Positions 3,485-46,167 of a stretch of 64,000 bases of DNA are shown in pieces; within the stretch, counting starts at the first letter, position 1; the number at the start of each line of letters is the position of its first letter. The notes beneath the pieces were generated by a model that saw nothing but the letters and a program-made list of their open reading frames with translations, searched no databases and was not told where the DNA came from. The position numbers were made by a program, and so were the translations under genes. This DNA comes from a virus: IMG/VR virus record IMGVR_UViG_3300009514_000013, positions 1 to 64,000 of that record; one strand, given 5' to 3'.

Positions 3485-3920
3485 TTGCTCCTTACAAGAA
3501 GGGGCTATTTGGAACACGGGAGATCAACAAGTTTCTGCTGTTGTTTGTGAAGGTCGAACAGGATTCTTTGTCCCATCTGCTCTGTATCGACGTCTTCGAA
3601 ATCCAGAGAACAGTCATGTCTACAAGTTACTACATGAAGAGTTGAAACTTGCTGACAAAGAGATCGTCCACCTGAAGAAAGCTCTCGAAGCATCATCAAA
3701 AGAATCCCAAAGTTACAAACGTATGGTTGATCAATATCGCCTGGACTGGACCCAATCAGAAGAAGCTTTGAGAGAAGCAAACAAGGACGTCAGATCTTTG
3801 GCATCGGTTTCATTCTTTGAACACCCAGTCTTGTGGTTCACACTGGGTGTGGTTGCTACGGTTGTGATTGTGAATACTCTTCAAGAAGATTCAGGTGCTA
3901 CTGTCGTGGTTCCGAAGTGA
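3432..3920 (+). CDS. Secreted coiled-coil protein overlapping the previous gene, spanin-partner candidate
   Basis: 162 aa from the ATG at 3432, which has GGAGAG seven bases upstream; an in-frame ATG at 3417 is the alternative. Hydrophobic N-terminal signal (MLTLLITTTTLLTTQPVNC; the Cys is in a poor lipobox context), a helical middle (ELKLADKEIVHLKKALEASS) and a C-terminal transmembrane segment (LWFTLGVVATVVIV). The first 53 bp are dual-coding with the upstream gene. The second membrane segment is unlike a classic Rz1, so function is uncertain. Its 3' end runs into the convergent repeat gene. Confidence 0.45.
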   Translation: MLTLLITTTTLLTTQPVNCSLQEGAIWNTGDQQVSAVVCEGRTGFFVPSALYRRLRNPENSHVYKLLHEELKLADKEIVHLKKALEASSKESQSYKRMVDQYRLDWTQSEEALREANKDVRSLASVSFFEHPVLWFTLGVVATVVIVNTLQEDSGATVVVPK

Positions 3921-4109
3921 TGGTTTCAACTCATTTCTAAGCGAGTCCTCAAGCGAGTCCTCAAGCGAGGACCTAAGCGAGGAGCCAAGCGAGGGCCAAA
4001 GTGAGGTCTCAAGCGAGGAGCCAAGCGAGGAGCCAAGCGAGGAGCCAAGCGAGTCCTCAAGCGAGAACTCAAGCGAGGACCAAAGTGACTTCATTTCAAT
4101 CTTTTTCAT
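3891..4109 (-). CDS. SLxx tetrapeptide-repeat protein, copy A
   Basis: 72 aa. MKKIEMKSL is followed by about 13 S-L-x-x units (LWS, LEF, LED, LGS x3, LET, LWP, LGS, LRS, LED x2) and RNELKPSLRNHDSST. The ATG at 4109 shares a base with the stop of the upstream minus-strand gene (TGATG), typical of translational coupling. The 3' end overlaps the convergent spanin-candidate gene by 30 bp. The tail after the NELK motif is longer than in other copies, perhaps because no downstream gene constrains it. Function unknown. Confidence 0.7.
   Translation of the reverse strand: MKKIEMKSLWSSLEFSLEDSLGSSLGSSLGSSLETSLWPSLGSSLRSSLEDSLEDSLRNELKPSLRNHDSST
3939..4090 (-). repeat. 12-bp tandem array A
   Basis: About 13 units of AAGCGAG plus five variable bases (plus-strand view). 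Two units carry substitutions (AAGTGAG). Confidence 0.9.
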
Positions 4110-4594
4110 CAATCCAATCCTTTCCAAAACATGATTGGCAGTTCAACCAAATGAACACCAGCTACATCTCTTGCGTATTCCTCGACACCGATCAAGAAAT
4201 CTTGAAAGACATCTAGCGTTGGAGAACCGAGAAGAGCTTCACACCCATCAACTGACCAATGAAGAAACAATGGTTGACCCTCCCACTTGAGAACAGACCA
4301 GATGTCATCTCCCCAGTTGTATGGCCATTCTCTTTCTTCTACCTTCACCTCTTTGTTCTGATCTTTGAGAGAACGATCATATGGAACATACGGACCATCA
4401 TCTCTACCCCAGAACAGTTGTGGTCCCATAGCAGCCCACGTCTTGATCGGTTGAGCGTTTGTCAAGAAAGCTTTGAGAGTCACAGGTTGCAGCATTGTGT
4501 AGAGGGTACCTCTGAGAACAAGAGGTAGAGTTGGATCCCCTAATGGATGCTCCCAGGATGGGAAAGGTTGTCTATGAAGATTGTTGAAGTTCAT
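4109..4594 (-). CDS. Hypothetical protein
   Basis: 161 aa, rich in Trp, Pro and aromatic residues (NWGDDIWSVLKWEGQPLFLHW), suggesting a compact soluble protein. No family recognised. Its start overlaps the end of repeat gene B and its stop overlaps the start of repeat gene A, so it is sandwiched between two SLxx genes in one minus-strand operon. Confidence 0.6.
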   Translation of the reverse strand: MNFNNLHRQPFPSWEHPLGDPTLPLVLRGTLYTMLQPVTLKAFLTNAQPIKTWAAMGPQLFWGRDDGPYVPYDRSLKDQNKEVKVEEREWPYNWGDDIWSVLKWEGQPLFLHWSVDGCEALLGSPTLDVFQDFLIGVEEYARDVAGVHLVELPIMFWKGLD

Positions 4595-4799
4595 CTTCTA
4601 TCCGTCTCAAAGACCAAAGCGAGTCCTCAAGCGAGAACTCAAGCGAGTCCTCAAGCGAGAACTCAAGCGAGGAGCCAAGCGAGGACCTAAGCGAGGAGCC
4701 AAGCGAGGACCAAAGCGAGGAGCCAAGCGAGGACCAAAGCGAGGAGCCAAGCGAGGACCTAAGCGAGGAGTCAATATGTTTCATTTCAAATTCCTTCAT
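4572..4799 (-). CDS. SLxx tetrapeptide-repeat protein, copy B
   Basis: 75 aa from the ATG at 4799 (MKEFEMKHI, matching the family N-terminus); an in-frame ATG at 4811 would add four residues and overlap the RuvC stop. About 13 units alternate LRS, LGS, LWS, LEF and LED, ending WSLRRIEDELQQSS, a divergent form of the REELKQ end. The 3' end overlaps the next gene by 23 bp. Confidence 0.7.
   Translation of the reverse strand: MKEFEMKHIDSSLRSSLGSSLWSSLGSSLWSSLGSSLRSSLGSSLEFSLEDSLEFSLEDSLWSLRRIEDELQQSS
4611..4773 (-). repeat. 12-bp tandem array B
   Basis: About 13 units; the GAGCC and GACCA variants alternate several times in the middle, suggesting duplication of a 24-bp pair. Confidence 0.9.
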
Positions 4800-4800
4800 T

Positions 4801-5331
4801 TCATCCACCAACTTTCTTCAAAACTTCTTTCTCTTGTTTGGTACCTTCTTCGAATCCAGCAAGTACCTTCGCCATCTCCATCAAGCCGTATGCATCAGCT
4901 TCATCATCAGTCTTCAACACCAGATTGTATTTGGAAGCGATCGTAGAGACCATCTGAGTTTTGTTTGCATTACCTTTACCAGTGACAAACTTCTTCAGGG
5001 TTGTAGGAGCAACCTCAACCAAGTGATCTGTCATTGGCAACAGACACTTCCGCAGTATTCCACCGAGTTCTCCTAGGTACACTCCAGCTGTATTGGCTCC
5101 ATATGCGTAACCTTCAATCACAATTACTTTCGGACGAATCTCTTGGATGACTTTAAGAGCATTCAAGACCAAATCATCGATACGTCTCATCCGTGCTTCA
5201 ACAGGAGCTTTCTTCCCAGGTGATTTGCTTTTGAACACGTGGACGTCTGTGAACCACTCCCTTTTTCGCAGTACTGATCTCGCTAGTGCAAAGCTCGTAA
5301 GTGATGGATCAATTCCAATAACACACTTCAT
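4801..5331 (-). CDS. ruvC: RuvC-like Holliday junction resolvase
   Basis: 176 aa, RNase H fold. The acidic residues of RuvC resolvases are visible: Asp in IGIDPSLT (about residue 8), Glu in VIVIEGYAYG (about 73) and the C-terminal Asp pair in KTDDEADAYGL (about 140). It would cut four-way junctions made during recombination-dependent replication, and so clear branches before packaging. It overlaps the upstream gene by 4 bp (ATGA). Confidence 0.9.
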   Translation of the reverse strand: MKCVIGIDPSLTSFALARSVLRKREWFTDVHVFKSKSPGKKAPVEARMRRIDDLVLNALKVIQEIRPKVIVIEGYAYGANTAGVYLGELGGILRKCLLPMTDHLVEVAPTTLKKFVTGKGNANKTQMVSTIASKYNLVLKTDDEADAYGLMEMAKVLAGFEEGTKQEKEVLKKVGG

Positions 5332-5723
5332 TGTAGGTCCTCTGGATCAGGCTCCGAATGTACTGGGCATTGATTGACAGCAACACATAGCGGACATGCT
5401 ACCTTTTGATGTGCATGACATCGGCAAGCACACGAGTCGTTAAGATGTTCTAACCAGTATTCGAAGGCTTCTCTTCTACCTTCGTTCTTCACTTCTTCCA
5501 TTAGACTCACCAAGACTCTTCGATACAGATCGAGATCTGGACTCCTTTCGAAAGTGAAACCTCGAATAAACTTTTTCTTGTCTGATAGAAGTTCTTCTTC
5601 GAACTCATCGAGAACTTCTTTAATGAGCTTCTCATGATCAGGAAGTTCCTCCCATGGATCTTTGCGGCCTGTCTGGATGAGATCCTCATAGGCTTTCTTC
5701 AATATTTTCTTCAAGTTCGTCAT
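5328..5723 (-). CDS. Hypothetical protein with Cys/His-rich C-terminus
   Basis: 131 aa. The N-terminal 90 residues are charged and helical; the C-terminus carries a Cys/His cluster (CACRCHAH, CPLCVAVNQCPVH) that looks like a zinc site. The start lies within the 3' end of repeat gene C and the stop overlaps the RuvC start. Function unknown. Confidence 0.6.
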   Translation of the reverse strand: MTNLKKILKKAYEDLIQTGRKDPWEELPDHEKLIKEVLDEFEEELLSDKKKFIRGFTFERSPDLDLYRRVLVSLMEEVKNEGRREAFEYWLEHLNDSCACRCHAHQKVACPLCVAVNQCPVHSEPDPEDLQ

Positions 5724-5952
5724 TTGAACGCCATCTCAAGGAGCCAAGCGAGTCCTCAAGCGAGGAGCCAAGCGAGGAGCCAAGCGAGTACCTAAGCGAG
5801 TCCTCAAGCGAGGACCTAAGCGAGGACCAAAGCGAGTCCTCAAGCGAGTCCTCAAGCGAGTCCTCAAGCGAGAACTCAAGCGAGGACCAAAGCGAGTCCT
5901 CAAGCGAGAACTCAAGCGAGGACCAAAGTGACTTCATTTCAACCTTCTTCAT
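5686..5952 (-). CDS. SLxx tetrapeptide-repeat protein, copy C
   Basis: 88 aa. MKKVEMKSL, then about 16 units rich in LED and LWS, then RWRSNDELEENIEESL. The ATG lies inside the last codons of the upstream gene, so the stretch reading MKKVEMK here encodes DEEG-stop in the other frame. The 3' end reads through the next gene's start, a 38-bp overlap, as if the original stop after ELK had been lost. Confidence 0.7.
   Translation of the reverse strand: MKKVEMKSLWSSLEFSLEDSLWSSLEFSLEDSLEDSLEDSLWSSLRSSLEDSLRYSLGSSLGSSLEDSLGSLRWRSNDELEENIEESL
5738..5932 (-). repeat. 12-bp tandem array C
   Basis: About 16 units including three consecutive TCCTC variants and a repeated TCCTC-AACTC-GACCA block. Confidence 0.9.
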
Positions 5953-6577
5953 CAGAAATATCCGTTCCTTCAAACTCGATATCGAACGACAACACATCGT
6001 CGAAATCATCAACTTCAACTGTCTTGAGAATACGCCTCAATAGTTCTCTTTTTGCTCGTTGATACAACTGTTTGTTCTCAAGCCTTACTGTGCATCGAAG
6101 AGGCATTACAAACGTCTCTTCTTCAGGTTCCTTCATCTCTTTTCCGCAACCTTTGCAAGTTGCTCGGAACCCGTTGAATGCTAGACATGATGAGCACTGC
6201 CCTTCTGCAATTCGAAACCTCGTCTTGCGGATGCTTACCTTCTTGTCTGTAAACGAATCAGAGTGCTCATGGGTGAAGAACTCGTCATGTAGATCATTTC
6301 CAAGATCAACACCATCAGGCCACCAGTTTTGTTGTGTTTCTCGCCGTTCAGCTTCAATTCCTTTGTTCGTTTTTGTTACCAGTTTGAAAGCAGGAGTCAT
6401 CTGAGGAGCAAAGCCATCAAACAGAACCAACATCGAATGAGCAAAACCAGCCAGTTTGGCTTGATATGTCACTGCTTCTTTCCGTTCGACCCAAAAGTTG
6501 ATGAGTGACCAAATTGTTTGGAAGAGCTTTTCTCGCATCTCTTCTTGGTTCATTTCTCGATTTACAGGTTTCTTCAT
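5939..6577 (-). CDS. Hypothetical protein with a zinc-ribbon-like motif
   Basis: 212 aa. A Cys quartet (CSSC about residue 128, CKGCG about 142) suggests a metal-stabilised ribbon; the C-terminus is acidic (DVLSFDIEFEG). It overlaps the methyltransferase by 4 bp, so the two are likely cotranslated. Function unknown. Confidence 0.6.
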   Translation of the reverse strand: MKKPVNREMNQEEMREKLFQTIWSLINFWVERKEAVTYQAKLAGFAHSMLVLFDGFAPQMTPAFKLVTKTNKGIEAERRETQQNWWPDGVDLGNDLHDEFFTHEHSDSFTDKKVSIRKTRFRIAEGQCSSCLAFNGFRATCKGCGKEMKEPEEETFVMPLRCTVRLENKQLYQRAKRELLRRILKTVEVDDFDDVLSFDIEFEGTDISDEEG

Positions 6578-7416
6578 GAGTGTACTCCTACAACAATCAA
6601 CTCTTTCAGTTTTCGTTTTCGACCTTCCGATCGGCAGCTGATTGATCGATTCATGTCTACTTCGACGATCTTGAAATCTTCAAAAGTATTTCGAGTCCAT
6701 TCAGCATCGCTGCTAGACAGCATCACGTGAACACCTTTGTCATGTAGATCTTTATAAAGACCAGCCAATCGTTCATGATCATCCATGGTGAATCGGTTTC
6801 TGGTATACGAAGTGAACGAGGATGTCTTCGACACAGGGATGTAGGGTGGATCGAAATAGACAAAGTCTCCAGGAAGACAACTTTCACAAATTGTTTCAAA
6901 GTCTAATCTGAGAATCGTCGCTGTCTTTCTGAGTGTCTTGGCAACAGCTCTCAAGTTCTCCTCATCTAGGATCTTTGGGTTCTTGAACTTTCCATATGGG
7001 ACATTGAATTCACCCGATCGGTTCAAACGAAACAGGCCGTTGTAGCATGTCTTGTTTAGGTAGATCGTGCGAGCAGCTGCTTCTGTTGCTGTTAGCTCGA
7101 TTGGTTGCTGTTGTCGAAGTTCTAGGAAGAAATTCTTCTCTCGTTTCTGATGTTCCGACTGAAAAACTTCAAGGATTTTAATAACCCCATCACAGTCTGA
7201 AGCTAAAGAGTGATAGGTATTGATCAATTCTGAATTGAGATCACTGAGACTTGCTCCCAAGTTCAATCGAGAGTTTCTAGCTAGTGAGAAGTACAGTGCT
7301 CCACCACCAAGGAATGGTTCGTAGTACCTACCAAAGGTTTTGGGGATGTACTCCATCAAGTTGGGAAGAAGCCGTTTCTTTCCACCGGCGTATTTCAGAA
7401 ACGGTTTAGGAATCAC
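6574..7416 (-). CDS. dam: DNA N6-adenine methyltransferase, Dam / D12 class
   Basis: 280 aa, a normal length for D12-class enzymes. FLKYAGGKKRLL (residue 5 on) and EPFLGGGALYFSL form the SAM-binding motif, and the catalytic motif IV is DFVYFDPPY (about residue 188). It would methylate adenine, possibly in GATC, to protect phage DNA or regulate it. The GTG start at 7416 overlaps the stop of repeat gene D (GTGA), and the end of that repeat gene supplies a GAGAGGAG ribosome binding site. Confidence 0.9.
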   Translation of the reverse strand: MIPKPFLKYAGGKKRLLPNLMEYIPKTFGRYYEPFLGGGALYFSLARNSRLNLGASLSDLNSELINTYHSLASDCDGVIKILEVFQSEHQKREKNFFLELRQQQPIELTATEAAARTIYLNKTCYNGLFRLNRSGEFNVPYGKFKNPKILDEENLRAVAKTLRKTATILRLDFETICESCLPGDFVYFDPPYIPVSKTSSFTSYTRNRFTMDDHERLAGLYKDLHDKGVHVMLSSSDAEWTRNTFEDFKIVEVDMNRSISCRSEGRKRKLKELIVVGVHS

Positions 7417-7727
7417 TGTTTCAACTCCTCTCTAAGCGAGGACCAAAGCGAGGACCTAAGCGAGTCCTCAAGCGAGTACCTAAGCGAGTCCTCAAGCGAG
7501 GTCTCAAGCGAGGACCTAAGCGAGGAGTAAAGCGAGGAGCCAAGCGAGTCCTCAAGCGAGGAGCCAAGCGAGAACCAAAGCGAGGACCAAAGCGAGAACC
7601 TAAACGAGTACCTAAGCGAGTCCTCAAGCGAGTCCTCAAGCGAGAACTCAAGCGAGTCCTCAAGCGAGGAGCCAAGCGAGGACCTAAGCGAGGTCTCAAG
7701 CGATTTCAATTTGATTTTCTCATCCAT
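7413..7727 (-). CDS. SLxx tetrapeptide-repeat protein, copy D (longest)
   Basis: 104 aa from the ATG at 7727 (106 from 7733). The N-terminus MDEKIKLKSL is a divergent form of MKKVEMKSL; about 22 units follow, then LREELKQ. It is first in the minus-strand operon, divergent from the HTH gene at 7787. Unlike other copies it has no upstream gene to couple to, and no clear Shine-Dalgarno sequence is visible. Confidence 0.65.
   Translation of the reverse strand: MDEKIKLKSLETSLRSSLGSSLEDSLEFSLEDSLEDSLRYSFRFSLWSSLWFSLGSSLEDSLGSSLYSSLRSSLETSLEDSLRYSLEDSLRSSLWSSLREELKQ
7432..7704 (-). repeat. 12-bp tandem array D
   Basis: About 22 units, the longest array. One unit reads AAACGAG, changing SL to SF. 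Confidence 0.9.
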
Positions 7728-7748
7728 GAACATGGTGTATCACATATA

Positions 7749-7777: not shown

Positions 7778-7786
7778 TCTTAAGTT

Positions 7787-10595: not shown

Positions 10596-11978
10596 ATGGG
10601 TGAGCGTGTTGTTGATGTCGATCTGGCCAACGAGCGAGTCATTTTGGCCACGATGATCCACGACCCCGAGAGACGACGTCAGCTCGCTCTCAGGCTGCGT
10701 TCGGATGACTTCGGGGACCCGAGGCACCAGGTCATGTTTAGAGCCCTGAGTGGCCTCTCAAGGGCTTCTCTCACGTGGTCAGAAGATACCTTCGCTGAAT
10801 TTGCCAAGGGCGAGGACTTCGGATCGTGGAAATATCTAAGAGAAATCGTTGACAAATACGAGGCAAATACCAACCTCGATTACCATATAGATCGGCTCCG
10901 TTTGGACCGTGTGAAACTGGAGTTGATAAGGGATGACCTTCAGGATTTGTCCCGAGCATGTGAGGATCCAAGTGCTCCACCAGAACGAATCAGGAGCGTC
11001 CTGAAGAGCGCTCTGACTCGTATCGATCGCATGGGGCACAAGTTCACCTCCGGTGGAGATCTCCTCGTAGACGGCTATTACGAGACCCTGAAGATGAGGG
11101 CCATTGTTGGTGATGTTGTTGAGGGAACAGGGTTCGAGATCCTTGATTCAGTCCTTGCTCGTGGCTTCGTCCCAGGGACTCTATCAGTCATTGCAGCCAG
11201 ACCCGGTTTTGGAAAGACTACGTTCCTTGCCAACTTCATAAGGCATCGGGTCCACAACAAAAAAGGCATCTACGTCTGCGGATGGGAGATGCTTCCTGAA
11301 GATTACCTAGACATGATGATCTCAGCTGAGACAGGTATCCCCGAAAATGACTTGGTTCGTAGGGTCAAATCGTTTTCAAAGGAACAAAACCGAGCCATCA
11401 TCGAAGCAGCGGAACTCTATCGAAATCGAAATCTGATTGAGTTCGAGGCGAACCCTTTTCCTCATCTCGAAAAGACTCCGAAGAAGTGGGACACCAACGA
11501 TCGCAACCTTGATTTTTTTGAATCGTCAGTTCAAAGAGCTTCAAGAACAAAGACCGTTGTTGCTCTTGATGTTGTTGGCAAGATGTTCTCCGATCGACGT
11601 CCGGATTCAGTGACCGAAGCACTCGTCCGAATCCGTGGAATGGCTCAAGCCTATGGCGTTCACATCATGCTTCTTCACCACATCAACCGAGCTGGTGCAG
11701 AAGGTCGGCCAGCACTTGAACACATCAAGAACTCAGGTGCTTTCGAAGAAGAAGCTGATCTCATTTTTGGTCTTGATCGTCCACGTCTCAGAGCGGGAAT
11801 AGAGAAGCGATCGAAGATGAAAGACACCTTGGACATTCACGTTCTCAAGCAACGCAAAGGTCCAGCACCGGCATGTGTACGCTATACCTTCGACGGTACG
11901 CGGTATGCACTTTCCAATGAAGTTGAGGTTGATCTCAGCATGTTGGAAACAAATGATGAAGAAGATTGGGATATGTGA
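10596..11978 (+). CDS. dnaB: Replicative DNA helicase, DnaB family
   Basis: 460 aa, close to the usual DnaB length. The N-terminal helical domain begins with the typical NERVILATMIHDPE. The RecA-like motor has Walker A in VIAARPGFGKTTFL (about residue 205), a Walker B-like strand (TVVALDVVG) and the H4-like MLLHHINR. It would unwind the phage fork, working with the primase and family B polymerase in the same operon. Confidence 0.9.
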   Translation: MGERVVDVDLANERVILATMIHDPERRRQLALRLRSDDFGDPRHQVMFRALSGLSRASLTWSEDTFAEFAKGEDFGSWKYLREIVDKYEANTNLDYHIDRLRLDRVKLELIRDDLQDLSRACEDPSAPPERIRSVLKSALTRIDRMGHKFTSGGDLLVDGYYETLKMRAIVGDVVEGTGFEILDSVLARGFVPGTLSVIAARPGFGKTTFLANFIRHRVHNKKGIYVCGWEMLPEDYLDMMISAETGIPENDLVRRVKSFSKEQNRAIIEAAELYRNRNLIEFEANPFPHLEKTPKKWDTNDRNLDFFESSVQRASRTKTVVALDVVGKMFSDRRPDSVTEALVRIRGMAQAYGVHIMLLHHINRAGAEGRPALEHIKNSGAFEEEADLIFGLDRPRLRAGIEKRSKMKDTLDIHVLKQRKGPAPACVRYTFDGTRYALSNEVEVDLSMLETNDEEDWDM

Positions 11979-12238: not shown

Positions 12239-12489
12239 TTAATGAAGTCGAGGTGGTGTGCAACCACATGCAACAAGAGAGTGAATATCATTCCATCGTG
12301 GAAATGGCGCAAGAAGGAGTCCTACAAGGGATGGAGATGCGGGGTATTGTTGATGAGATCGAATCTCATCTTAAACGTCGCATGTTCCCAAATGAAGTTC
12401 TCATTTTGGGTGATGAGATGGACAAAGCAGAACGTTTGATTGAACGAGATGAGCAAGACTACAGGGACATGGTGCGATGGACGATCTGA
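12235..12489 (+). CDS. Small acidic helical protein
   Basis: 84 aa, GTG start overlapping the previous stop by 4 bp. Almost entirely helical and Glu-rich (MQQESEYHSIVEMAQEGV). Its 3' end overlaps repeat gene E by 13 bp. Function unknown. Confidence 0.5.
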   Translation: MINEVEVVCNHMQQESEYHSIVEMAQEGVLQGMEMRGIVDEIESHLKRRMFPNEVLILGDEMDKAERLIERDEQDYRDMVRWTI

Positions 12490-12704
12490 AGGAAATGAAG
12501 CCACTTAGGTTCTCGCTTGGCTCCTCGCTTAGGTCCTCGCTTTGGTCCTCGCTTGGCTCCTCGCTTTGGTCCTCGCTTAGGTCCTCGCTTGAGGACTCGC
12601 TTAGGTACTCGCTTGGCTCCTCGCTTGGCTCCTCGCTTGAGGACTCGCTTGGGTACTCGCTTTGGTCCTCGCTTTGGTTCTCGCTTAGAGATGAGTTGGA
12701 TTAA
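12477..12704 (+). CDS. SLxx tetrapeptide-repeat protein, copy E
   Basis: 75 aa: MDDLKEMKPL, about 16 units, then LRDELD. It starts inside the previous gene and ends 14 bp inside the primase gene, filling the junction of two replication-operon genes. The same array is also open in the primase frame as an Arg/Pro-rich string, which I do not regard as translated. Confidence 0.7.
   Translation: MDDLKEMKPLRFSLGSSLRSSLWSSLGSSLWSSLRSSLEDSLRYSLGSSLGSSLEDSLGYSLWSSLWFSLRDELD
12504..12686 (+). repeat. 12-bp tandem array E
   Basis: About 16 units of CTCGCTT plus five bases. LGS, LRS, LWS and LED predominate. Confidence 0.9.
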
Positions 12705-16989: not shown

Positions 16990-17172
16990 ATGAGATTGGG
17001 AAAGTTCAAAACTCAAAGTGGTAAGCAGCAGTGGTTCCAGTTCATGGAGCTCGAGGAGCCGATCTTTCTTCAAAGAGAGATGGAAGAGCCGTTGAGGAAT
17101 GTTGTTCTATCCTTTTTGAGTTTGTTGGCACTGGTCGCTTGTGTTGTGGCTGCTATGGTTTCGGTGTGGTGA
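16990..17172 (+). CDS. Small membrane protein
   Basis: 60 aa; charged N-terminus and a C-terminal transmembrane helix (FLSLLALVACVVAAMVSVW). The stop shares a base with the ATG of repeat gene F. EEPIFLQREMEEPL recalls DPIFLERPLSW in the frame at 31629; this may be chance. A TTGACC element at 16950 may lie in its promoter. Confidence 0.45.
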   Translation: MRLGKFKTQSGKQQWFQFMELEEPIFLQREMEEPLRNVVLSFLSLLALVACVVAAMVSVW

Positions 17173-17351
17173 TGAAGAAAGTTGAAATGAAACCTCTTAG
17201 GTCCTCGCTTTACTACTCGCTTTGGTTCTCGCTTGGCTCCTCGCTTTGGTTCTCGCTTTACTCCTCGCTTGAGGACTCGCTTGAGACCTCGCTTAGGTCC
17301 TCGCTTGGCTCCTCGCTTTGGTTCTCGCTTAGAAATGAGTTGAAACAATGA
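17172..17351 (+). CDS. SLxx tetrapeptide-repeat protein, copy F
   Basis: 59 aa: MKKVEMKPL, about 12 units including the aromatic-rich LYY, LWF and LYS, then RNELKQ. It starts at TGATG with the previous gene and ends in ATGA with the next, the clearest example of a copy fitted exactly into an operon junction. Confidence 0.75.
   Translation: MKKVEMKPLRSSLYYSLWFSLGSSLWFSLYSSLEDSLETSLRSSLGSSLWFSLRNELKQ
17196..17332 (+). repeat. 12-bp tandem array F
   Basis: About 12 units; includes the rare TACTAC (YY) variant, shared with array H. Confidence 0.9.
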
Positions 17352-20919: not shown

Positions 20920-22008
20920 ATGAGTAAGGTTGCCTTCGTTGCCGATGTTCATCTTGGCAACCATCAACGGTACGGTGGAGCTATCGAACTTGGGATGAAC
21001 CGTCGTTGTCGTGAAGTTCTTGAAACTCTGAAAGTAGCTGTAGCTGAAGCTGATGAGTGCGAATCTTTCGGAGTACTTGGTGATCTCTTTGATGTTACTA
21101 AGCCAATTCCACAGATGGTGAAAGCTGTTCAGGACATCCTAGAACCATCACCATCTCCATTCGTCATGATGGGAAATCATGATCAAGTCTCTTCAAGATC
21201 TGGAGATCATGCTCTAGGTCCTCTGGAGCCTGTCTCGGAAGTTATCGAAACGCCTAACCTCATCCACCTAGATGACTGTGACCTGGTTGTTTTACCTTTC
21301 CGGCCAGGTGTCGCCGATGATTGGGTTCCAGAGGACCTAGATTCCTTGTTTTCAAACAGGAGAATTCGTCCAGGTTCTGTTCTCTGTTTGCACCTAGGGA
21401 TCAAAGATTCTGAAACACCTAGCTATCTGACCGGTTCTCATGACTGCATCGACGTTGATCATGTAGCTGAGCTGATGCAGCGATATGACATCATCGCGAC
21501 AGTTGCGGGTAACTGGCATGAGTTGAAGAGTTGGAAGCGTGGTAAAAGTCAGATTCTTCAGATAGGCACTCTTGCTCCAACCGGCTGGGACAATCCGGGC
21601 CTTGATGATTACGGCCATATGGCTATCTGGGATTCGAAGACGATGACGTTTGATGTTCTCGAGATTCCAGGTCCACGCTTCTTGAAGATACGAGATCGAG
21701 AAGAGTTGAAAGCATTACCTCCTGGAGATGAATACGAGATCTACCTTGAGTGGACTGTATCAGATCCGAATGACTTGGTGAGTGCAAACCAAGAGATTGA
21801 GGAGATGATCAGTAAAGGTCGTATCGTCGCTGGTGGTGCATTCCTAGACAAGAAAGAGCAAGAGAAGAAAGCGAGAGTGTCAGCCAAAGCAGCTGCATCA
21901 AGTGAGACTTTGGAAGATGCACTATCGGCTTACATCAACACCATGGAGCTGGATGAACGAGTGACAACAGATCGGCTGATTGGTCTCACCAAGAGGTACT
22001 TGGGATGA
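20920..22008 (+). CDS. sbcD: SbcD-like exonuclease subunit (metallophosphoesterase)
   Basis: 362 aa from the ATG at 20920. Phosphoesterase motifs are VAFVADVHLGNH (D-x-H), LGDLFD, MMGNHDQ and GNWHE; the last is a variant of the usual GHxH. With SbcC this forms the Mre11/Rad50-type nuclease (T4 gp47/gp46), which resects DNA ends and feeds recombination. The SbcC gene lies 0.7 kb downstream, separated by two degenerate repeat-type genes and one other. Confidence 0.85.
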   Translation: MSKVAFVADVHLGNHQRYGGAIELGMNRRCREVLETLKVAVAEADECESFGVLGDLFDVTKPIPQMVKAVQDILEPSPSPFVMMGNHDQVSSRSGDHALGPLEPVSEVIETPNLIHLDDCDLVVLPFRPGVADDWVPEDLDSLFSNRRIRPGSVLCLHLGIKDSETPSYLTGSHDCIDVDHVAELMQRYDIIATVAGNWHELKSWKRGKSQILQIGTLAPTGWDNPGLDDYGHMAIWDSKTMTFDVLEIPGPRFLKIRDREELKALPPGDEYEIYLEWTVSDPNDLVSANQEIEEMISKGRIVAGGAFLDKKEQEKKARVSAKAAASSETLEDALSAYINTMELDERVTTDRLIGLTKRYLG

Positions 22009-22232
22009 ATCAAATTCGCTTTTTGAAGGGCTATTCGCTTAGGGACTCGCTTAACATTTCGTTTATTTGGTCGGTTGACTCTCCACTGAGGTTCTCGCCA
22101 GATGATTCATTTTTAGGTTACTTGCACTGGTCTTTGAGTGACTATCTTGGTGGTCAAATTGCTAATTCCGTGAAAGATGTGTTGAAACAATGGCTGAAAT
22201 CTCAGACGACATCCTTCGAAAATTCGAAATAG
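22005..22232 (+). CDS. Degenerate SLxx-type microprotein
   Basis: 75 aa, ATG overlapping the SbcD stop (ATGA). YSLRDSLNISFIWSVDSPLR and SPDDSF keep the S-L-x-x period with mixed codons, and VLKQWLK replaces ELKQ-stop: the bases GTTGAAACAATGG around the next ATG match those at 17342. It appears to be a diverged array gene whose stop was lost, so it now runs 43 bp into the next gene. Confidence 0.5.
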   Translation: MNQIRFLKGYSLRDSLNISFIWSVDSPLRFSPDDSFLGYLHWSLSDYLGGQIANSVKDVLKQWLKSQTTSFENSK

Positions 22233-29917: not shown

Positions 29918-30077
29918 GAGGGATCTTTATAGGTACACACCGAATTCACTACGTTGGGATCTCATGCATGGTGTCGCTCACCCTTTGGGAGATGCATTAC
30001 GCTTGTCTTTGATTCTCAAGGTTGAGGCAGAACTAGAAAGGTATAAAAATGGAGAAAATCAAAGAACTAACACCTGA
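29874..30077 (+). CDS. Microprotein, possible degenerate SLxx relative
   Basis: 67 aa, ATG preceded by AAGGAGG. NSLRWDLMHGVAHPLGDALR and LSLILKVEAELERYK recall the HPLMDSL / RRELK pattern of the copies at 32595. It overlaps its upstream neighbour by 44 bp and the next gene by 29 bp. Confidence 0.45.
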   Translation: MSTAIVSVNDTLRIKRDLYRYTPNSLRWDLMHGVAHPLGDALRLSLILKVEAELERYKNGENQRTNT

Positions 30078-31002
30078 ACAGAAAGCCGAGATGGTTGTCT
30101 GGCGAAAGCGATGGTTTGACATTGGGTCATGTTGCGATCCAGCTGACAAGCCAAAAGCAGAAGCAGCCATCTCGAAGATGTACGAGCTCATCGGTCAGAC
30201 TGCACCAAAGTTCATTTGGTGCAAGAGTCCACTTGATGCAAATCGAGAGATTCACCGCTACTCAAAAGGGTTACCGGCTGATCATTCTCTCGAAGGTGAA
30301 GACATCGAAATCCAGGGGGCATACCAATGGGGGCAGATGGACTCCTACTGGATTTCTTTCTACCTCTTCTGTCGGGATGTAGTTGGTGTTGAGTACTCTG
30401 AGAAAGATTCAGAGACGTTGGACCTATGGTCTGAGATTGCTCAGTCTTGTGGTTGGTGGTGGCCTTATGAAGGTGTGTGTTTTGTGTCTGACCGCCCTCT
30501 TGCGGTTCATTGGGAAGACGATCGGGATCCTCCTAGGATTCACAATCCGAATGGACCAGCTGTGGAGTACCGTGATGGATTCAAGGTCTACGCTATTCGG
30601 GACATCCGGGTAGAGCCAAGGATTATCGAGAATCCAGAAACCATCACGTTCGAGGAGATACTCAGAGAGCGAAACGCTGAGATCCGTAGAGTCCTACTCA
30701 GGCAATACGGTGAAGAGCGATTTGTGAATGATTCGCGAGTGAAGATGTTTGCCCAAGATGAAGAAGGTATCCTCTATTCGATTGATGGTGAGGACATCGA
30801 CTTCATGTTGCTCAAGGTCATCAATTCAACGCCTGAACCAGATGGTAGCCTTAAGCCGTATTTTCTCACGACGTTCACTAGTACTGAGACGACGAGAGAG
30901 AATACTGGTATCGACTACCACGGACCATGGACACCTCACGCAGCTAGAGCGATCAGCTTCAAGATTCATCCAGACAAGTTCAATTGTTTGATGGAGACCT
31001 AG
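30049..31002 (+). CDS. DUF6745-like protein
   Basis: 317 aa. GWWWPYEGVCFVSDRPLAVH, RIHNPNGPAVEYRDGFKVYA, the PETITFEEILRERNAEIRRV region and the YGEERF segment match my recollection of DUF6745, found in actinobacteria and other groups. No enzymatic function is known to me. I recall SVxx-type tetrapeptide runs in some members of that group; here an SLxx gene follows directly. Confidence 0.6.
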   Translation: MEKIKELTPEQKAEMVVWRKRWFDIGSCCDPADKPKAEAAISKMYELIGQTAPKFIWCKSPLDANREIHRYSKGLPADHSLEGEDIEIQGAYQWGQMDSYWISFYLFCRDVVGVEYSEKDSETLDLWSEIAQSCGWWWPYEGVCFVSDRPLAVHWEDDRDPPRIHNPNGPAVEYRDGFKVYAIRDIRVEPRIIENPETITFEEILRERNAEIRRVLLRQYGEERFVNDSRVKMFAQDEEGILYSIDGEDIDFMLLKVINSTPEPDGSLKPYFLTTFTSTETTRENTGIDYHGPWTPHAARAISFKIHPDKFNCLMET

Positions 31003-31003: not shown

Positions 31004-31189
31004 ATGAAGAAAGTTGAAATGAAACCTCTTAGCTCCTCGCTTAGGTCCTCGTTTAGCTCCTCGCTTTGGTCCTCGCTTGGCTCCTCGCTTTGGTCCTCGC
31101 TTGGCTCCTCGCTTAGGTCCTCGCTTGGCTCCTCGCTTGGCTCCTCGCTTAGGTCCTCGCTTGAGGAAGAGTTGAGGTCTCGACGTTAA
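31004..31189 (+). CDS. SLxx tetrapeptide-repeat protein, copy G
   Basis: 61 aa: MKKVEMKPL, about 12 units (mostly LRS, LGS, LWS), then LEEELRSRR. Starts one base after the DUF6745 stop; its own stop overlaps the 16-bp palindrome at 31185, so here the cassette ends an operon rather than feeding a coupled gene. Confidence 0.72.
   Translation: MKKVEMKPLSSSLRSSFSSSLWSSLGSSLWSSLGSSLRSSLGSSLGSSLRSSLEEELRSRR
31025..31166 (+). repeat. 12-bp tandem array G
   Basis: About 12 units; one reads CTCGTTT (SF), the same substitution found in arrays D and H. Confidence 0.9.
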
Positions 31190-31860: not shown

Positions 31861-32595
31861 ATGGCAAAAGCACGAATATCCGAAAAGAAATACAACCTCC
31901 TCCTAGAAGCATTTCGCGAAGTCCCTGGAAGGACATGGAAGGCATCTGAGATCGCCGGAGTGCAGCCTAAAACCGCACAAAGAGCTTGGGAACGCGGTTG
32001 GGATGATCCGATATGGGCTCGAACTCCGATCAGAGAAATCGTCGAGAAAGAACAGATTGCAGCTAGAGCAGAGCTTCAACGCCAAGGTGAAAAAGAGAAA
32101 GCCAAAGACACGGCTGATCGCGAGAAAGCTAAACTCGACATTGTCCAACAACGAACCAAAGAAGCAGCCGGTATCAGGAACTCCACCACCAACGTTCTCG
32201 CCATCATTCAGAACCAAGGGAAATTCCTACAGAGTACCCAACGCATCAACGATCATCTCCTGGTCAAGTTTGAAGAAGATGTCAAAGCAAACAAGATCTC
32301 GGTGAAGGAGTACACTCAGATTATCAACAGCCTGGCCAATGCTGTGACGAGAGCTGTTCAAGGTCTGAAGACCGGAATGGAAGCAGCAAGACTCTACCTT
32401 GGAGAACCTGAGCAGATCGTTGGTTTCGTCCAACCTCAGGTGAACTATCAACTCGACTACAACAAAGCAGAAGCTACATTCGGAGCTGAGTTCATCAAGA
32501 AGGTCATGAGAGACTTGGCGGAAGAGAGGATGACTGCAGAGGTCGATCGCTTCTTCGAATGGGAACATGAGCAAAGGAACATGGAGTTGAACTGA
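31861..32595 (+). CDS. Putative small terminase subunit
   Basis: 244 aa from the ATG at 31861 (31846 is possible). N-terminal HTH-like segment (TWKASEIAGVQPKTAQRAWE, residues 25-44), a long basic/acidic coiled coil (EKEKAKDTADREKAKLDIVQ) and a helical C-terminal domain. DNA-binding N-terminus, central oligomerisation helix and position 1.7 kb upstream of the terminase ATPase gene are typical of TerS, but no diagnostic motif exists. Confidence 0.5.
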   Translation: MAKARISEKKYNLLLEAFREVPGRTWKASEIAGVQPKTAQRAWERGWDDPIWARTPIREIVEKEQIAARAELQRQGEKEKAKDTADREKAKLDIVQQRTKEAAGIRNSTTNVLAIIQNQGKFLQSTQRINDHLLVKFEEDVKANKISVKEYTQIINSLANAVTRAVQGLKTGMEAARLYLGEPEQIVGFVQPQVNYQLDYNKAEATFGAEFIKKVMRDLAEERMTAEVDRFFEWEHEQRNMELN

Positions 32596-32771
32596 TGAAG
32601 CAGTTGGAGATGAAAAATGTCAGGCGTGATCTTGATAAGACTCTTGGTTCCTCCATTGTCATGAGACTCGATGCGTTCATTACGTCATCTATTTTTCATC
32701 CACTCATGGATTCGCTTCATCAGTCACTTGTAGGCTCAGTACGTCGTGAAGAGAGAAGAGAGTTGAAGTGA
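32595..32771 (+). CDS. Degenerate SLxx-type microprotein
   Basis: 58 aa. The N-terminus MKQLEMKNV and the C-terminus REERRELK-stop match the array genes, but the middle keeps only traces (TLGSS, HPLMDSLHQSLVGS). ATG and stop overlap both neighbours (TGATG at each side). The best link between perfect arrays and degenerate copies. Confidence 0.6.
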   Translation: MKQLEMKNVRRDLDKTLGSSIVMRLDAFITSSIFHPLMDSLHQSLVGSVRREERRELK

Positions 32772-32956
32772 TGGAGCCGCTTATGAATGAAGTGAATTCA
32801 AAGCTCAAGCATCCGCTCATGGATCGACTCTATACATTGCTTTCATTTCAACCTCATATTCTACACCCGCTCGATGTTTCTCTTTGGGGATCACTAGGAA
32901 GATCATTCCTAGTAGGAGTTCGTACATGTTTGAACGAAAAGACGAGTTCGAAATGA
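32771..32956 (+). CDS. Degenerate SLxx-type microprotein
   Basis: 61 aa. KHPLMDRLYTLLSFQ and HPLDVSLWGSLGRSF keep the spacing of L and S every four residues. Overlaps the next microprotein. GTG at 32768 is an alternative start. Confidence 0.5.
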   Translation: MEPLMNEVNSKLKHPLMDRLYTLLSFQPHILHPLDVSLWGSLGRSFLVGVRTCLNEKTSSK

Positions 32957-33096
32957 AATTCAGGTCTTTGAATGAGACCTTGGCAGAGTCGCTTGAGTAC
33001 TCCATCGAGGGCGCTCTCAGATTTTCACTTGAGAAACCGCTTAGGGATTCTCTTATCCGGTCGCTGGTGATGCATCTTTCCATGAAGAGTGAATAA
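32926..33096 (+). CDS. Degenerate SLxx-type microprotein
   Basis: 56 aa from the ATG at 32926 (ATG at 32953 overlaps the upstream stop). FEMKFRSL matches the family N-terminus, then LAESLEYSIEGALRFSLEKP and LRDSLIRSL follow. The SL pairs are written TCTTTG, TCGCTT, TCACTT, TCTCTT and TCGCTG, a synonymous spread absent from the perfect arrays. Confidence 0.6.
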   Translation: MFERKDEFEMKFRSLNETLAESLEYSIEGALRFSLEKPLRDSLIRSLVMHLSMKSE

Positions 33097-34127: not shown

Positions 34128-34316
34128 ATGGCGAAATTGAAGCTATGTGGTACGTTCTCCCTACGGGATCATCTCCAAATTGAGCTTGAAGATGTCGTTG
34201 AAAAGAGCTTGTCTGAACCAGTACACGATATCATCATCGGTGAAATCTATGACATCCACAAATCGCTTAATACCTCTCTGTGGCGACACACTCACGTAAC
34301 CTTATATGAGCGTTAA
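34128..34316 (+). CDS. Degenerate SLxx-type microprotein
   Basis: 62 aa. FSLRDHLQIELEDVVEKSLS and KSLNTSLWRH carry the pattern. The ATG directly follows the previous stop; the TAA lies within the palindrome at 34312. Confidence 0.4.
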   Translation: MAKLKLCGTFSLRDHLQIELEDVVEKSLSEPVHDIIIGEIYDIHKSLNTSLWRHTHVTLYER

Positions 34317-41353: not shown

Positions 41354-41386
41354 CTGTCACGATTCTGTCGCGATTCTGTCACGATT
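41354..41386. repeat. Three tandem 11-bp repeats
   Basis: CTGTCACGATT, CTGTCGCGATT, CTGTCACGATT directly after the dehydrogenase stop, followed by a partial copy. Could be a protein-binding site for control of the next gene. Confidence 0.5.
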
Positions 41387-41423
41387 CTAGTCAATCGGCT
41401 GGGTTAAGAAAGGAGAGGGGTGA

Positions 41424-42005: not shown

Positions 42006-42212
42006 ATGAAGAAATTGAAATCGCTTAGGTACTCGCTTGGCTCCTCGCTTTACTACTCGCTTTACTCCTCGCTTGAGGACTCGCTTAGGCACTCGCCTAG
42101 GTACTCGCCTTGGTCCTCGTTTAGCTCCTCGCTTTACTCCCCGCTTTGGTTCTCGCTTTGGTCCTCGCTTAGGTTCTCGCTTTGGTCCCAAATGTGTTTA
42201 ACAAAGGAATAA
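42006..42212 (+). CDS. SLxx tetrapeptide-repeat protein, copy H
   Basis: 68 aa: MKKLKSL, about 14 units with more substitutions than other arrays (LRH, PRY, PWS, FSS), ending LWSQMCLTKE. It opens the nucleotide-enzyme operon after a TTGACC element at 41960. Several units have CTCGCCT or CTCGTTT, so this copy seems to be drifting. An AAAGGA site at its 3' end serves the MazG gene. Confidence 0.7.
   Translation: MKKLKSLRYSLGSSLYYSLYSSLEDSLRHSPRYSPWSSFSSSLYSPLWFSLWSSLRFSLWSQMCLTKE
42020..42186 (+). repeat. 12-bp tandem array H
   Basis: About 14 units, the most diverged of the nine arrays (changes inside the constant CTCGCTT). Confidence 0.88.
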
Positions 42213-42216
42213 ACCA

Positions 42217-42916: not shown

Positions 42917-43122
42917 GAATGATCGAGTTCAGTCCGAATCGCATGTACTCTGCGCCAAAAGCTTCTCTTCGATACAGGTTACAAACCGAAGTTATAAACT
43001 TCTTTTGGCCTTACTCGCCTTTAGAGTTTGAACCTATTCAACTTGGGCTGATCTCTTCTCTAACTTCAATTACACATTGCGTAAGACAAGAGCTTGAAGT
43101 AAGGAGCACCCATGACAAGTGA
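42913..43122 (+). CDS. Microprotein, possible degenerate SLxx relative
   Basis: 69 aa. KASLRYRLQTEVINFFWPYS, SPLEFEP and RQELEV recall SLRY, SLEF and REELK of the arrays. ATGA overlap upstream; the end overlaps the HD gene by 11 bp. Confidence 0.4.
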   Translation: MRMIEFSPNRMYSAPKASLRYRLQTEVINFFWPYSPLEFEPIQLGLISSLTSITHCVRQELEVRSTHDK

Positions 43123-43645: not shown

Positions 43646-44070
43646 TGACATTGGTAATGGGAAGTCGAACAACACCTGGTCTGCTTGAAGAAGTGAAAGA
43701 GAAGAAGTCTGAACGGAAGTGGGAGAAGCCATCCGGCGAACAAGCTGTTCAGTATGATGAGGGAAAACTTCGGTATGATCTGATTTCTCGATTTGCTCTC
43801 CGTGAAGTTGTCAGAGGAGCTACGTTTGGAGCAAACAGCAAGTATGACGACTGGAATTTCCTTAAAGGAAAAGGGTTGTCAGTCTCAGCTCAGTTGGCTT
43901 CTATCGAACGCCATTTCAACAAAATCATGATGGGAAATGACATCGATGAAGAGTCTAAGGTTCACCATCTTGGGCTGATTGCGCTGCGGGCGATGATGGC
44001 TTACGAGACTCTGATGTTTCACCCAGAACAAGATGATCGCTTCTACAAGAACAACAAGCCGAAGAAATGA
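43645..44070 (+). CDS. DUF5664-like dNTP hydrolase-associated protein
   Basis: 141 aa. YDEGKLRYDLISRFALREVV, KYDDWNFLKG and NDIDEESKVHHLGLIALRAM follow the pattern of DUF5664 (Pfam PF18909), which I recall being linked with dATP/dGTP diphosphohydrolases. The ATG shares a base with the HD gene stop, so the two are coupled. Exact reaction not established. Confidence 0.6.
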   Translation: MTLVMGSRTTPGLLEEVKEKKSERKWEKPSGEQAVQYDEGKLRYDLISRFALREVVRGATFGANSKYDDWNFLKGKGLSVSAQLASIERHFNKIMMGNDIDEESKVHHLGLIALRAMMAYETLMFHPEQDDRFYKNNKPKK

Positions 44071-44104
44071 ACGCCATCCAACAACTGCTCTTTAGTCAAG
44101 TAGA

Positions 44105-44524
44105 ATGTCGAATGCACAAGAACTATTTGAGAATCTCATCCTCACCGAAACTGATCTCTCTGGATTAGCCGCAACCATCGCTGTCCTCGCTTCTCCTAGC
44201 GATCGAGGTTCTGCACTTACTCGCATCTATATTGGTGTCGACTACTGCAACAAGCTCCTCAATCAACTTCTCCAATTGACAGATCAAGAGCTTCCATTCC
44301 GAGACAAGTTCTTGAAACTTAGTGATGTGTACCAACGGCGTTTGAGTGCTCTTGAAGAGATCGGAAATCAAAGTCGTATACCTACGGTTGGAGCTATGAC
44401 TACCGTTTCTTGGGTTGTTGAACTGGTTGATGAACCACTCCGTGAGATTGTTGATGGGTTGAAGACACTGGCAGCGATTTCATCAATCGAGAACTTCTTG
44501 CGTTGGTGTCTGCTCAGAGTGTGA
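44105..44524 (+). CDS. Hypothetical helical protein
   Basis: 139 aa, entirely helical (DYCNKLLNQLLQLTDQELPF). No family recognised. Confidence 0.5.
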   Translation: MSNAQELFENLILTETDLSGLAATIAVLASPSDRGSALTRIYIGVDYCNKLLNQLLQLTDQELPFRDKFLKLSDVYQRRLSALEEIGNQSRIPTVGAMTTVSWVVELVDEPLREIVDGLKTLAAISSIENFLRWCLLRV

Positions 44525-44540
44525 TAAGTTCGAAATTGAA

Positions 44541-44876
44541 ATGACCAAGTGCGTTGGCTGCGAATGGCCATCAGGTTGTAAAGCTCAATTCAACCCACCC
44601 AAAATCATGATCCGGAATCGTTATCGGTACTTGTGCAAAGCTCATGTTCAGATAGCCGAAAGAGATCCGATCTCAACAGCAGAAACTTTCTGGGCGCTCG
44701 ACAATTGGAAACCGAAAGATATGGTTTGTCCGCTCTGTGATGGTCCGTTGATGACTACTGGCGTCTGTGTGAGTTGTGACGAACTCCTAGTCAGACGGGA
44801 AATAGCTGGTCTTTTTGACAAGTTGGTGACTGAAGAGGTTCCTGATGAGGACGACGAATCCTCAGAAGCTGCCTAG
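44541..44876 (+). CDS. Zinc-binding hypothetical protein
   Basis: 111 aa. Two Cys clusters: CVGCEWPSGCKAQF with LCKAH, then VCPLCDGPLMTTGVCVSC; probably two zinc sites. Acidic C-terminus. Its stop is followed directly by the palindrome at 44877. Confidence 0.55.
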   Translation: MTKCVGCEWPSGCKAQFNPPKIMIRNRYRYLCKAHVQIAERDPISTAETFWALDNWKPKDMVCPLCDGPLMTTGVCVSCDELLVRREIAGLFDKLVTEEVPDEDDESSEAA

Positions 44877-44892
44877 GTTAAAGCGATTTAAC
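44877..44892. promoter_or_regulatory. 16-bp palindrome before the ATG at 44895
   Basis: GTTAAAGCGATTTAAC, positions -18 to -3 from the start codon; only two bases remain before the ATG, so no ribosome binding site is possible downstream of it. Confidence 0.6.
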
Positions 44893-44894
44893 AC

Positions 44895-45263
44895 ATGGAG
44901 AACACCGACGAGATTCGTATCCATCTCACCACCCTGGTGCAGAACGCTGCGAGAGCCTGCAAAATAGCCGGTCTCGAGCATGAATTCAGAAAGCTGTCCC
45001 AAGTCCAGGTAGATTTCAAAACCCGCCTAGCGTGCGTTTTCAAAGCTGTCAGGCTGGTGGAGACTTCCATCTTGGTGAATTGGGGTAAATCGCTCATGAC
45101 CCCAGGTTTTTCTGGCCTAGCCGCGGAATCTATTGCTATCGTTCGATTAGGGGCTATCACTGCTCTCACGGAGGCTGATGTAGATGTCAAAAGGAAATGG
45201 ATCCAAGAACTGGTCAACCGTTCCGACTGTAAAGTTCTCTCCTACTCGAAAGAAGGAACTTGA
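44895..45263 (+). CDS. Hypothetical protein
   Basis: 122 aa, helical (TTLVQNAARACKIAGLEHEF). Its 3' end overlaps the next gene by 80 bp in another frame. No family recognised. Confidence 0.5.
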   Translation: MENTDEIRIHLTTLVQNAARACKIAGLEHEFRKLSQVQVDFKTRLACVFKAVRLVETSILVNWGKSLMTPGFSGLAAESIAIVRLGAITALTEADVDVKRKWIQELVNRSDCKVLSYSKEGT

Positions 45264-45573
45264 GAAGCTATTCGAAGAACGTGTCGAACAGTACCTGGGT
45301 GATCCGACGATCAAAGAATTGGTGCAACGATACAGAAAGAAGATCGATCTACAAGAAGAGATCTTCGCATCTCCAATTGATGTTCATGAAGCTTTCGACG
45401 CGGTAGTTGTTGCCCACTGCTTCGCAGATCACGAACCAGTTGACCTAGCGAAGAAGGTTGAAAGTAACCTAGTTATGGTTCGTGCGATGTGTCGCCACTA
45501 CAAGAAACTTGCTGACATCTGGAAAGAGAACTGTGATGCTCTTTGCGAATTGGTGAAAAATGACGACGTTTGA
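45184..45573 (+). CDS. Hypothetical helical protein
   Basis: 129 aa. KKELEKLFEERVEQYLGDPT and following helices; basic N-terminus. If the ATG at 45184 is used, 80 bp are dual-coding; internal starts cannot be excluded. Confidence 0.5.
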   Translation: MSKGNGSKNWSTVPTVKFSPTRKKELEKLFEERVEQYLGDPTIKELVQRYRKKIDLQEEIFASPIDVHEAFDAVVVAHCFADHEPVDLAKKVESNLVMVRAMCRHYKKLADIWKENCDALCELVKNDDV

Positions 45574-45970
45574 AGAGAAGTACCCAAATGTGAAACCAGC
45601 TCCTCTTCTTTCGGATAGCGATCGAAATAGGTGGATCGTAGAAAAAGAACCACAGAAGGTAGAGACAGAAGATCTCGTTGTAGAGGAGAAAAAGGCTGAA
45701 CCTGTTGTTGATCGATGGGCGAAGATTGGCAAACTCTCTCTCAATCTCGACGGGATCGGTGGTACAGTTCCAGAACTTCTCTTGCTCCTCATTGCAGAAG
45801 TTAGAGAGTTGGTGATGCAACCAAAACAAGAAACAGTTGCTTCAGTGGTTCAATCCAGACCGGATTTGCAGAATGCTTTGAAAGACAGCATCGGAGAGAT
45901 TCAAAAGATGATGGGTGCTCTCAACCGAGGTAAGCCAGGAACTCCATTGAAGAAGGTGAATGGAGAATGA
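45560..45970 (+). CDS. Hypothetical protein
   Basis: 136 aa. Charged N-terminal half (VETEDLVVEEKKAEPVVDRW) and a helical C-terminus. Its last codons overlap the ATG of repeat gene I (ATGA). Confidence 0.5.
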   Translation: MTTFEEKYPNVKPAPLLSDSDRNRWIVEKEPQKVETEDLVVEEKKAEPVVDRWAKIGKLSLNLDGIGGTVPELLLLLIAEVRELVMQPKQETVASVVQSRPDLQNALKDSIGEIQKMMGALNRGKPGTPLKKVNGE

Positions 45971-46167
45971 AGAAGGTTGAAATGAAACCTCTTGGCTCCT
46001 CGCTTTGGTTCTCGCTTGAGGACTCGCTTGAGGACTCGCTTGAGTTCTCGCTTGAGGACTCGCTTGAGGACTCGCTTAAGGACTCGCTTTGGTCCTCGCT
46101 TGGCTCCTCGCTTTACTCCTCGCTTGGCTCCTCGCTTTGGTTCTCGCTTAGAGAGGAGTTGAAGTAG
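45967..46167 (+). CDS. SLxx tetrapeptide-repeat protein, copy I
   Basis: 66 aa: MKKVEMKPL, about 14 units rich in LED, then LREELK. The end contains GAGAGGAG, which also serves as ribosome binding site for the next gene; its TAG overlaps that gene's GTG. Confidence 0.75.
   Translation: MKKVEMKPLGSSLWFSLEDSLEDSLEFSLEDSLEDSLKDSLWSSLGSSLYSSLGSSLWFSLREELK
45985..46147 (+). repeat. 12-bp tandem array I
   Basis: About 14 units; five are the GAGGAC (ED) form and one is AAGGAC (KD). Confidence 0.9.

Follow-up and report, generated by a model that had tools for sequence, protein, structure and literature searches.

Why does a tailed phage carry nine small genes built from one 12-bp repeat, and what might such genes do? 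The DNA considered here, hereafter the window, is a stretch of 64,000 bp comprising positions 1–64,000 of the 84,362-bp virus record IMGVR_UViG_3300009514_000013 (IMG/VR), which its genes for terminase, portal, head protein and replication mark as a tailed phage. Each of the nine array genes (A to I) encodes a run of S-L-x-x tetrapeptides, and the window also holds one gene of the DUF6745 family (PF20530) that has no repeat array. The nine are a real, coding, multi-gene phage family. Repeats of the same class occur elsewhere inside DUF6745 proteins, and stand-alone arrays are paired with array-less DUF6745 genes, a pairing that is statistically supported. We give an even chance to the reading, drawn from sequence comparison, that the stand-alone variable arrays have split from DUF6745 and act with its core in trans as tunable counter-defence or recognition modules.

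An earlier note on the window had reported nine arrays of about 11–22 units; all nine lie within a few bases of where it had placed them and hold 10–23 units each, close to its count. Each array keeps to a single frame, opened and closed by codons of its own (A–D on the minus strand, E–I on the plus strand), and in that frame the unit CTT-x-x-TCG yields S-L-x-x without a stop in nine of nine, as the note had read them. Across the 84,362-bp record, a search for CTCGCTT repeated exactly three times, one copy every 12 nt, gave 44 forward and 48 reverse matches, all within the nine arrays and none in the rest of the record, and a reversed-pattern control gave 0. The array is preceded by ~8–10 residues and followed by a few to ~25. 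Common starts and ends had also been claimed, and these hold for most of the genes: an MKKxEMK-like start is clear in A, B, C, F, G and I and looser in D, E and H, and an E-L-like end (EELK, NELK, DELD, DELQ and others) is present in eight, with further residues after it in A and C, H being the exception. The flanks of the nine genes are all different, and sequence outside the genes is not common to them.

Translation and variation were assessed across six records with stand-alone arrays. The variable codons of 616 units contain 0 stop codons against 45.2 expected from per-position base composition with codon positions treated as independent, a contrast that is not a formal probability, the units being related by duplication and only those with the commonest fixed hexamer of their genome having been taken. 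This supports translation of the arrays and, with the stop-free frames, upholds the view that they are proteins of one family. Codons of the fixed pair are nearly uniform within a genome (in the window, TCG in 109 and CTT in 112 of 112 units counted) and differ between phages, and the fixed-fixed-variable-variable scheme is kept throughout; W, R, G and E are common across phages as the first variable residue, as is Y in some. Unit variation is concentrated at positions 7, 8, 10 and 11, and in the window also at 9. Third bases of the fixed pair are almost invariant, window third-base diversity being 0.06 at position 3, 0.00 at 6 and 12, and 0.44 at 9. Variable hexamers one base apart formed 13 synonymous and 181 nonsynonymous pairs, summed over the six records, against a synonymous opportunity of 0.21–0.25, and the deficit is strong in four of the six. 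Fused DUF6745 arrays that were measured, and gp54 of the mycobacteriophage Tweety, vary scarcely or not at all outside positions 7, 8, 10 and 11. Such a pattern is consistent with concerted evolution that leaves both variable residues diverse. Targeted mutation could be another source, but reverse transcriptase (PF00078) was found in 0 of nine records, the window included, although these may be incomplete, and in all three control genomes, which counts against the arrays being targets of a diversity-generating retroelement. Assignment to the pentapeptide repeats was rejected, the period being four and no pentapeptide match appearing in C, D, E, G and I, the five genes scanned.

Unit order is common to arrays above chance for runs of three or more units. 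Four-unit runs common to arrays numbered 9 (permutation mean 0.8) and five-unit runs 5 (permutation mean 0.1), values reached in 0 of 1000 permutations; two-unit runs (69 against 62.1) show no excess. A block of seven units is common to C and E, which lie on opposite strands. The exchange between arrays that the earlier note had suspected is thus supported, as exchange or as common descent of blocks. Separately, genes D and I (7400–7440 on the minus strand and 46150–46180 on the plus strand) have identical ends plus GTGATTCCTAAACC running across and past the stop, and the genes after them open with the same five codons (V-I-P-K-P); the copied unit of D and I may extend beyond the stop codon.

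Array gene G adjoins the array-less DUF6745 gene, and from this came the idea that arrays and core belong together; the route to DUF6745 was through repeat-pattern scans of viral contigs. Neither the array-less gene beside G nor degenerate copies such as that at 32595–32771 appear in the earlier note. A whole-record scan for PF20530 found a single match place (30400–30906), with no match in the five of nine array genes scanned (C, D, E, G and I). DUF6745 with an internal array is found in a Manatee Spring siphovirus (MW202476), the Mycobacterium abscessus prophage prophiGD102-1 and Nocardia farcinica. Fused arrays in phages and Nocardia occupy one site, between the N-terminal part and the core, and the window protein aligns on either side of this site with a short linker there instead. 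A sample of 98 genomes from the phylum to which an Oscillatoria assembly belongs held DUF6745 in 7; a single Oscillatoria assembly (genome G064) has seven matches (L349–L355).

Two protein scans gave 37 and 80 DUF6745 loci, in which arrays were called with a detector indifferent to the codons used and antisense shadows were removed; the query of the 37-locus scan contained split-lineage proteins, so that this clade is over-sampled, and the loci are not independent. Among unique contigs, before inspection of single loci, 14 of 35 array-less versus 1 of 68 fused DUF6745 genes had a stand-alone array within 10 kb (Fisher p = 4e-7). The array at L407 lies within a second fused DUF6745 gene (PF20530, 36.7 bits), and L396, at first put among the fused loci, has no array in its DUF6745 gene and an array gene immediately upstream; once both are moved, the counts are 15 of 36 versus 0 of 67. 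Because contigs break in the array, flanks are shorter around fused loci (only 17 of 60 have 9 kb on each side), and the comparison was therefore repeated for genes whose flanks are known for 9 kb or more in both directions, which gave 8 of 17 array-less versus 0 of 18 fused (p = 0.001) with L313, L315 and L434 omitted and L396, at a contig start, not in the test. In clusters at 50% identity, with the window included and before L396 was reassigned, arrays were found at 8 of 12 array-less-only versus 0 of 27 fused-only clusters; of two mixed clusters, one (including L407, L323 and L334) had stand-alone arrays and one had none.

Duplicate or near-duplicate contigs (L398, L389, L376, L412, L402 and L373) were dropped and other near-duplicates kept; six loci cut at the contig start and the truncated L342 and L343 were left out. 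Ten loci with an array detected in another frame were counted as fused, and L313 was added as array-less and L315 and L434 as fused. Eight of those ten have the array in the DUF6745 frame, L396 is the array-less locus already described, and L390 is fused but frame-broken. Apart from this one gene, out-of-frame arrays, which the earlier note had held would point away from a protein, were absent from the relatives examined. On a rescan of nine array-less proteins with stand-alone arrays, eight were over the Pfam cut-off (L334, L326, L437, L341, L317, L321, L323 and L310). The stand-alone arrays listed, up to seven per locus, are all on the strand of the DUF6745 gene. Most of the stand-alone genes are well formed, examples being MNSVKEQV...KEDIENE (L334), MKNLKDQV...KKDLK (L326) and MIDPGPCV...SLEEES (L318); L302 has eleven array genes in succession with ten overlaps of 11 bases each, and an R-V array of 20 units stands beside the DUF6745 gene of L252 (the L317 contig), at the contig end.

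Six virus records with stand-alone arrays, namely the window and five with S-V-x-x genes picked by eye from the list of a pattern scan, were searched for DUF6745. A DUF6745-like gene is present in four of these six, the window among them, and is array-less in all four, with PF20530 scores (cut-off 27) of 27.4 bits in G005, 26.8 alone or 27.3 with neighbours in G003, and 25.9 in G004. It was found in 0 of 50 comparison viral records without visible arrays, a non-random set from the pattern scan with many short records and with array loci dropped (e.g. L053 and L054, with fused DUF6745) and further records removed to bring the number to 50; this search had no positive control of its own, the same family search being positive in the stand-alone-array records.

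We propose that each of the nine genes encodes a hypervariable protein of tetrapeptide repeats that stands alone, with fixed S-L and two variable residues per 12-bp unit, and that a repeat module embedded in DUF6745 elsewhere has here been detached and multiplied, the core keeping its short linker. One common DUF6745 subunit would be combined with interchangeable arrays differing in length and variable residues, most likely working in trans, and the array proteins would dock on the core; docking is proposed because fused and separate forms exclude each other in this sample, a usual sign of joint action. Unit gain, loss and inter-copy exchange would keep the frame and most third bases uniform, and selection would maintain the diversity of the two variable residues. 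We infer, on this view, that the split is derived, that the proteins interact physically, that recombination is the source of the variation and that diversity is selected for. The arrays could be a set of modules tuned against several host defences, or host-recognition modules; by analogy with Tweety gp54, one or other role is probable. It is a more doubtful possibility that constant DUF6745 and at least nine short proteins form a repertoire system, with paired variable residues as recognition surfaces against host defence components, renewed by 12-bp-unit recombination under diversity selection. This last would resemble the repeat receptors of eukaryotic immunity. The WD40 repeats of Podospora NLR proteins, as described in PMC12222747, are similar in their concerted evolution and in having few hypervariable sites under diversifying selection, but they are unrelated in sequence, eukaryotic and part of one large protein, and the likeness is one of analogy only.

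These findings tie a mycobacteriophage repeat, later linked to counter-defence, to a protein family of phages, actinobacteria and cyanobacteria, and show whole repeat sets kept as separate genes in some phages. They predict that array proteins bind the DUF6745 core, and such phages offer a natural system for rapid, recombination-driven tuning of phage protein recognition.

The nearest published design is Tweety gp54, a tetrapeptide-repeat protein whose repeat number varies between phages (PMC2884959 and PMC9262239); a review reports it as counter-defence against a prophage defence, with escape mutants differing in repeat number, and its first description found a repeat pattern consistent with selection for variation. 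Its 12-bp unit, like that of the window genes, encodes a fixed and a variable pair of residues. It varies at positions 7, 8, 10 and 11 and not at 1–6, 9 or 12, whereas the window varies at 9 as well; its third-position diversity is 0 at 3, 6, 9 and 12, and its variable residues, G/W/Q and S/Y, recall those of the window. The fixed pair is A-A, in one gene with unique ends, in contrast to S-L in nine genes, and >130 residues lie ahead of its array compared with the ~8–10 of the window genes. It has no Pfam match and does not match DUF6745. A-A-x-x arrays resembling gp54 were seen in viral contigs L045, L056 and L023.

Fused DUF6745 arrays read S-L-x-x, Q-L-x-x or Q-V-x-x, mostly with W/R/G/E at the first variable place as in the window, but stand between the N-terminal part and the core, whereas those of the window are separate and in nine copies. 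Stand-alone S-V-x-x or Q-V-x-x mini-genes in IMG/VR (L307–L310, L312, L313, L318, L326, L334 and L437) have a fixed start, an array and a fixed end and lie near array-less DUF6745 genes; they are mostly in tandem clusters, unlike the dispersed nine. The earlier statement that no such phage system had been described therefore needs narrowing: the repeat class is known in kind, published for gp54 and present fused in DUF6745, whereas no description of the split, multi-copy form with an array-less DUF6745 was found in the open-licence PMC literature, nor any paper there naming DUF6745. The repeat regions of Campylobacter phages described in PMC4546147 are unrelated to the window arrays. The small paralogues gp148–gp157 of Microcystis phage Ma-LMM01 (L344:20713-22742) are tandem and mostly overlapping and were rejected as not being tetrapeptide arrays; gp174 of this phage is a DUF6745-like gene without an array.

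Other searches returned little of the same kind. INPHARED (50,697 phage records) yielded no near relative of the phage, whether queried with its terminase, its portal or the DNA of its first 24 kb, and the viral contig set held no close relative of the terminase and 0 cases of an MKKxEMK start followed by an array. Among one genome per species for 84,980 species, CTCGCTT arrays gave 39 four-unit exact stretches, none with W/R/G/E-type variety; poorer S-L-x-x runs in this set include SLFTSLLA (L267) and SLPHSLPY (L266).

Several observations weigh against joint action of arrays and core. Eight of the nine window arrays lie 11–26 kb from the DUF6745 gene, A–D on the opposite strand. No stand-alone array lies within 10 kb of 21 of the 36 array-less genes, or of 9 of the 17 whose flanks are complete, so the core can exist alone. 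In G001 and G002, which may be fragments, stand-alone arrays are present but nothing reaches the DUF6745 cut-off. G003–G005 are related, the DUF6745 of G003 sharing 94% identity with that of G005 and 55% with that of G004, and two of these three score at or slightly below the PF20530 cut-off. L313 has no Pfam match at E 0.01 and was accepted solely as a relative of L301 (53%); the L317 array runs into the end of its contig and may or may not be a whole short gene; and metagenome assemblies are unreliable inside repeats. The synonymous ratio in L302 (0.167) and L310 (0.154) is only slightly under opportunity. AlphaFold2 gave a predicted local distance difference test score (pLDDT) <50 for the fused L089 array and rendered array D as one long helix that is not confident (mean pLDDT 70.3, predicted template modelling score 0.41); a fold search of the PDB found no match, and the PADLOC defence library gave a single weak match (Nocardia array, 17 bits).

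The arrays could instead work on their own as counter-defence proteins, in the manner of gp54, with DUF6745 being another user of the repeat. G001 and G002 would suit this, as would the 12-bp logic and nearly identical variable positions and the change of gp54 repeat number in escape mutants that the review reports. We consider it unlikely, given the long unique ends of gp54, which the window genes do not have, and the occurrence of stand-alone arrays in our sample beside array-less, never fused, DUF6745 genes. A similarly low probability attaches to selfish or neutral repeats, whereby slippage would expand 12-bp units that spread via gene junctions as harmless peptides and that DUF6745 merely tolerates too. 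Near-identical units, blocks common to loci and probable decayed copies are what such spread might leave, but it sits poorly with the stop count given above, with the single, separately started and terminated frame of each of the nine arrays, with one amino-acid scheme written in differing codons between phages, and with the mutual exclusion of fused and stand-alone forms.

An element acting at the DNA or RNA level (iteron, recombination site or structured RNA) and open by chance was already disfavoured and appears very improbable: the fixed DNA varies between phages but the amino-acid scheme does not, the coding frame is stop-free, and RNA folding gave little (z between −1.98 and +1.18 for six of nine arrays), set against the seven near-fixed and five variable bases per unit and the scarcity of third-base change that would recommend it. 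Hardly credible is an assembly artefact in which repeats were inserted into, or made a chimera of, a metagenome contig, in view of the nine distinct flanks, the same design in many contigs and the fused form in GenBank records; many related loci do begin a few hundred bases from an array, and contig breaks mean that unit numbers may be wrong. Coordinates of the genes discussed, of probable or possible decayed copies and of a second repeat family are given in Table 1.

Table 1 Array genes, DUF6745 gene and further features; positions refer to the window unless a contig is named
Feature	Position	Strand	Array	Remarks
Array gene A	3891..4109	-	3939-4090	SLxx
D12-class DNA adenine methylase gene	6574-7416			follows array gene D
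Array gene B	4572..4799	-	4611-4773	SLxx
Array gene C	5686..5952	-	5738-5932	SLxx
Array gene D	7413..7727	-	7432-7704	SLxx; longest array of the nine
Array gene E	12477..12704	+	12504-12686	SLxx
Array gene F	17172..17351	+	17196-17332	SLxx
Possible decayed array gene	22005..22232	+		YSLRDSLNISFIWSVDSPLRFS...
DUF6745 (PF20530) gene	30049..31002	+		317 aa; no repeat array; proposed partner; 145.8 bits, cut-off 27
Array gene G	31004..31189	+	31025-31166	starts 1 base 3' of DUF6745 gene
Probable decayed array gene	32595..32771	+		start MKQLEMK, end RREERRELK; repeat blurred
Possible decayed array gene	32953..33096	+		MKFRSLNETLAESLEYSIEGALRFSLEKPLRDSL...
Array gene H	42006..42212	+	42020-42186	SLxx; most degenerate of the nine
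Array gene I	45967..46167	+	45985-46147	SLxx
Second S-V-x-x family member	L237:8687-9508
Second S-V-x-x family member	L148:492-1292
Second S-V-x-x family member	L220:499-1257
Second S-V-x-x family member	L213:4026-4715

The second phage protein family in Table 1 has S-V-x-x arrays before a related C-terminal part (e.g. PSFDGxxWRLH), with no Pfam match in five members scanned and no PHROG match in two. On contig L001, paralogous genes with an EEPDxxVRxxVAxRIPxxRIDHLxTP repeat (13-651, 1048-1599, 3532-4530, 4534-5127 and 10761-11369) surround a DUF6745 gene with an SLxx array. Within the window, a small gene at 34128-34316 has a blurred four-residue rhythm (TFSLRDHLQIELEDVVEKSLSEPVHD) and is perhaps another decayed array gene, and an 11-bp tandem repeat (CTGTCACGATT, 3.5 copies) lies at 41354-41393, between two open frames.

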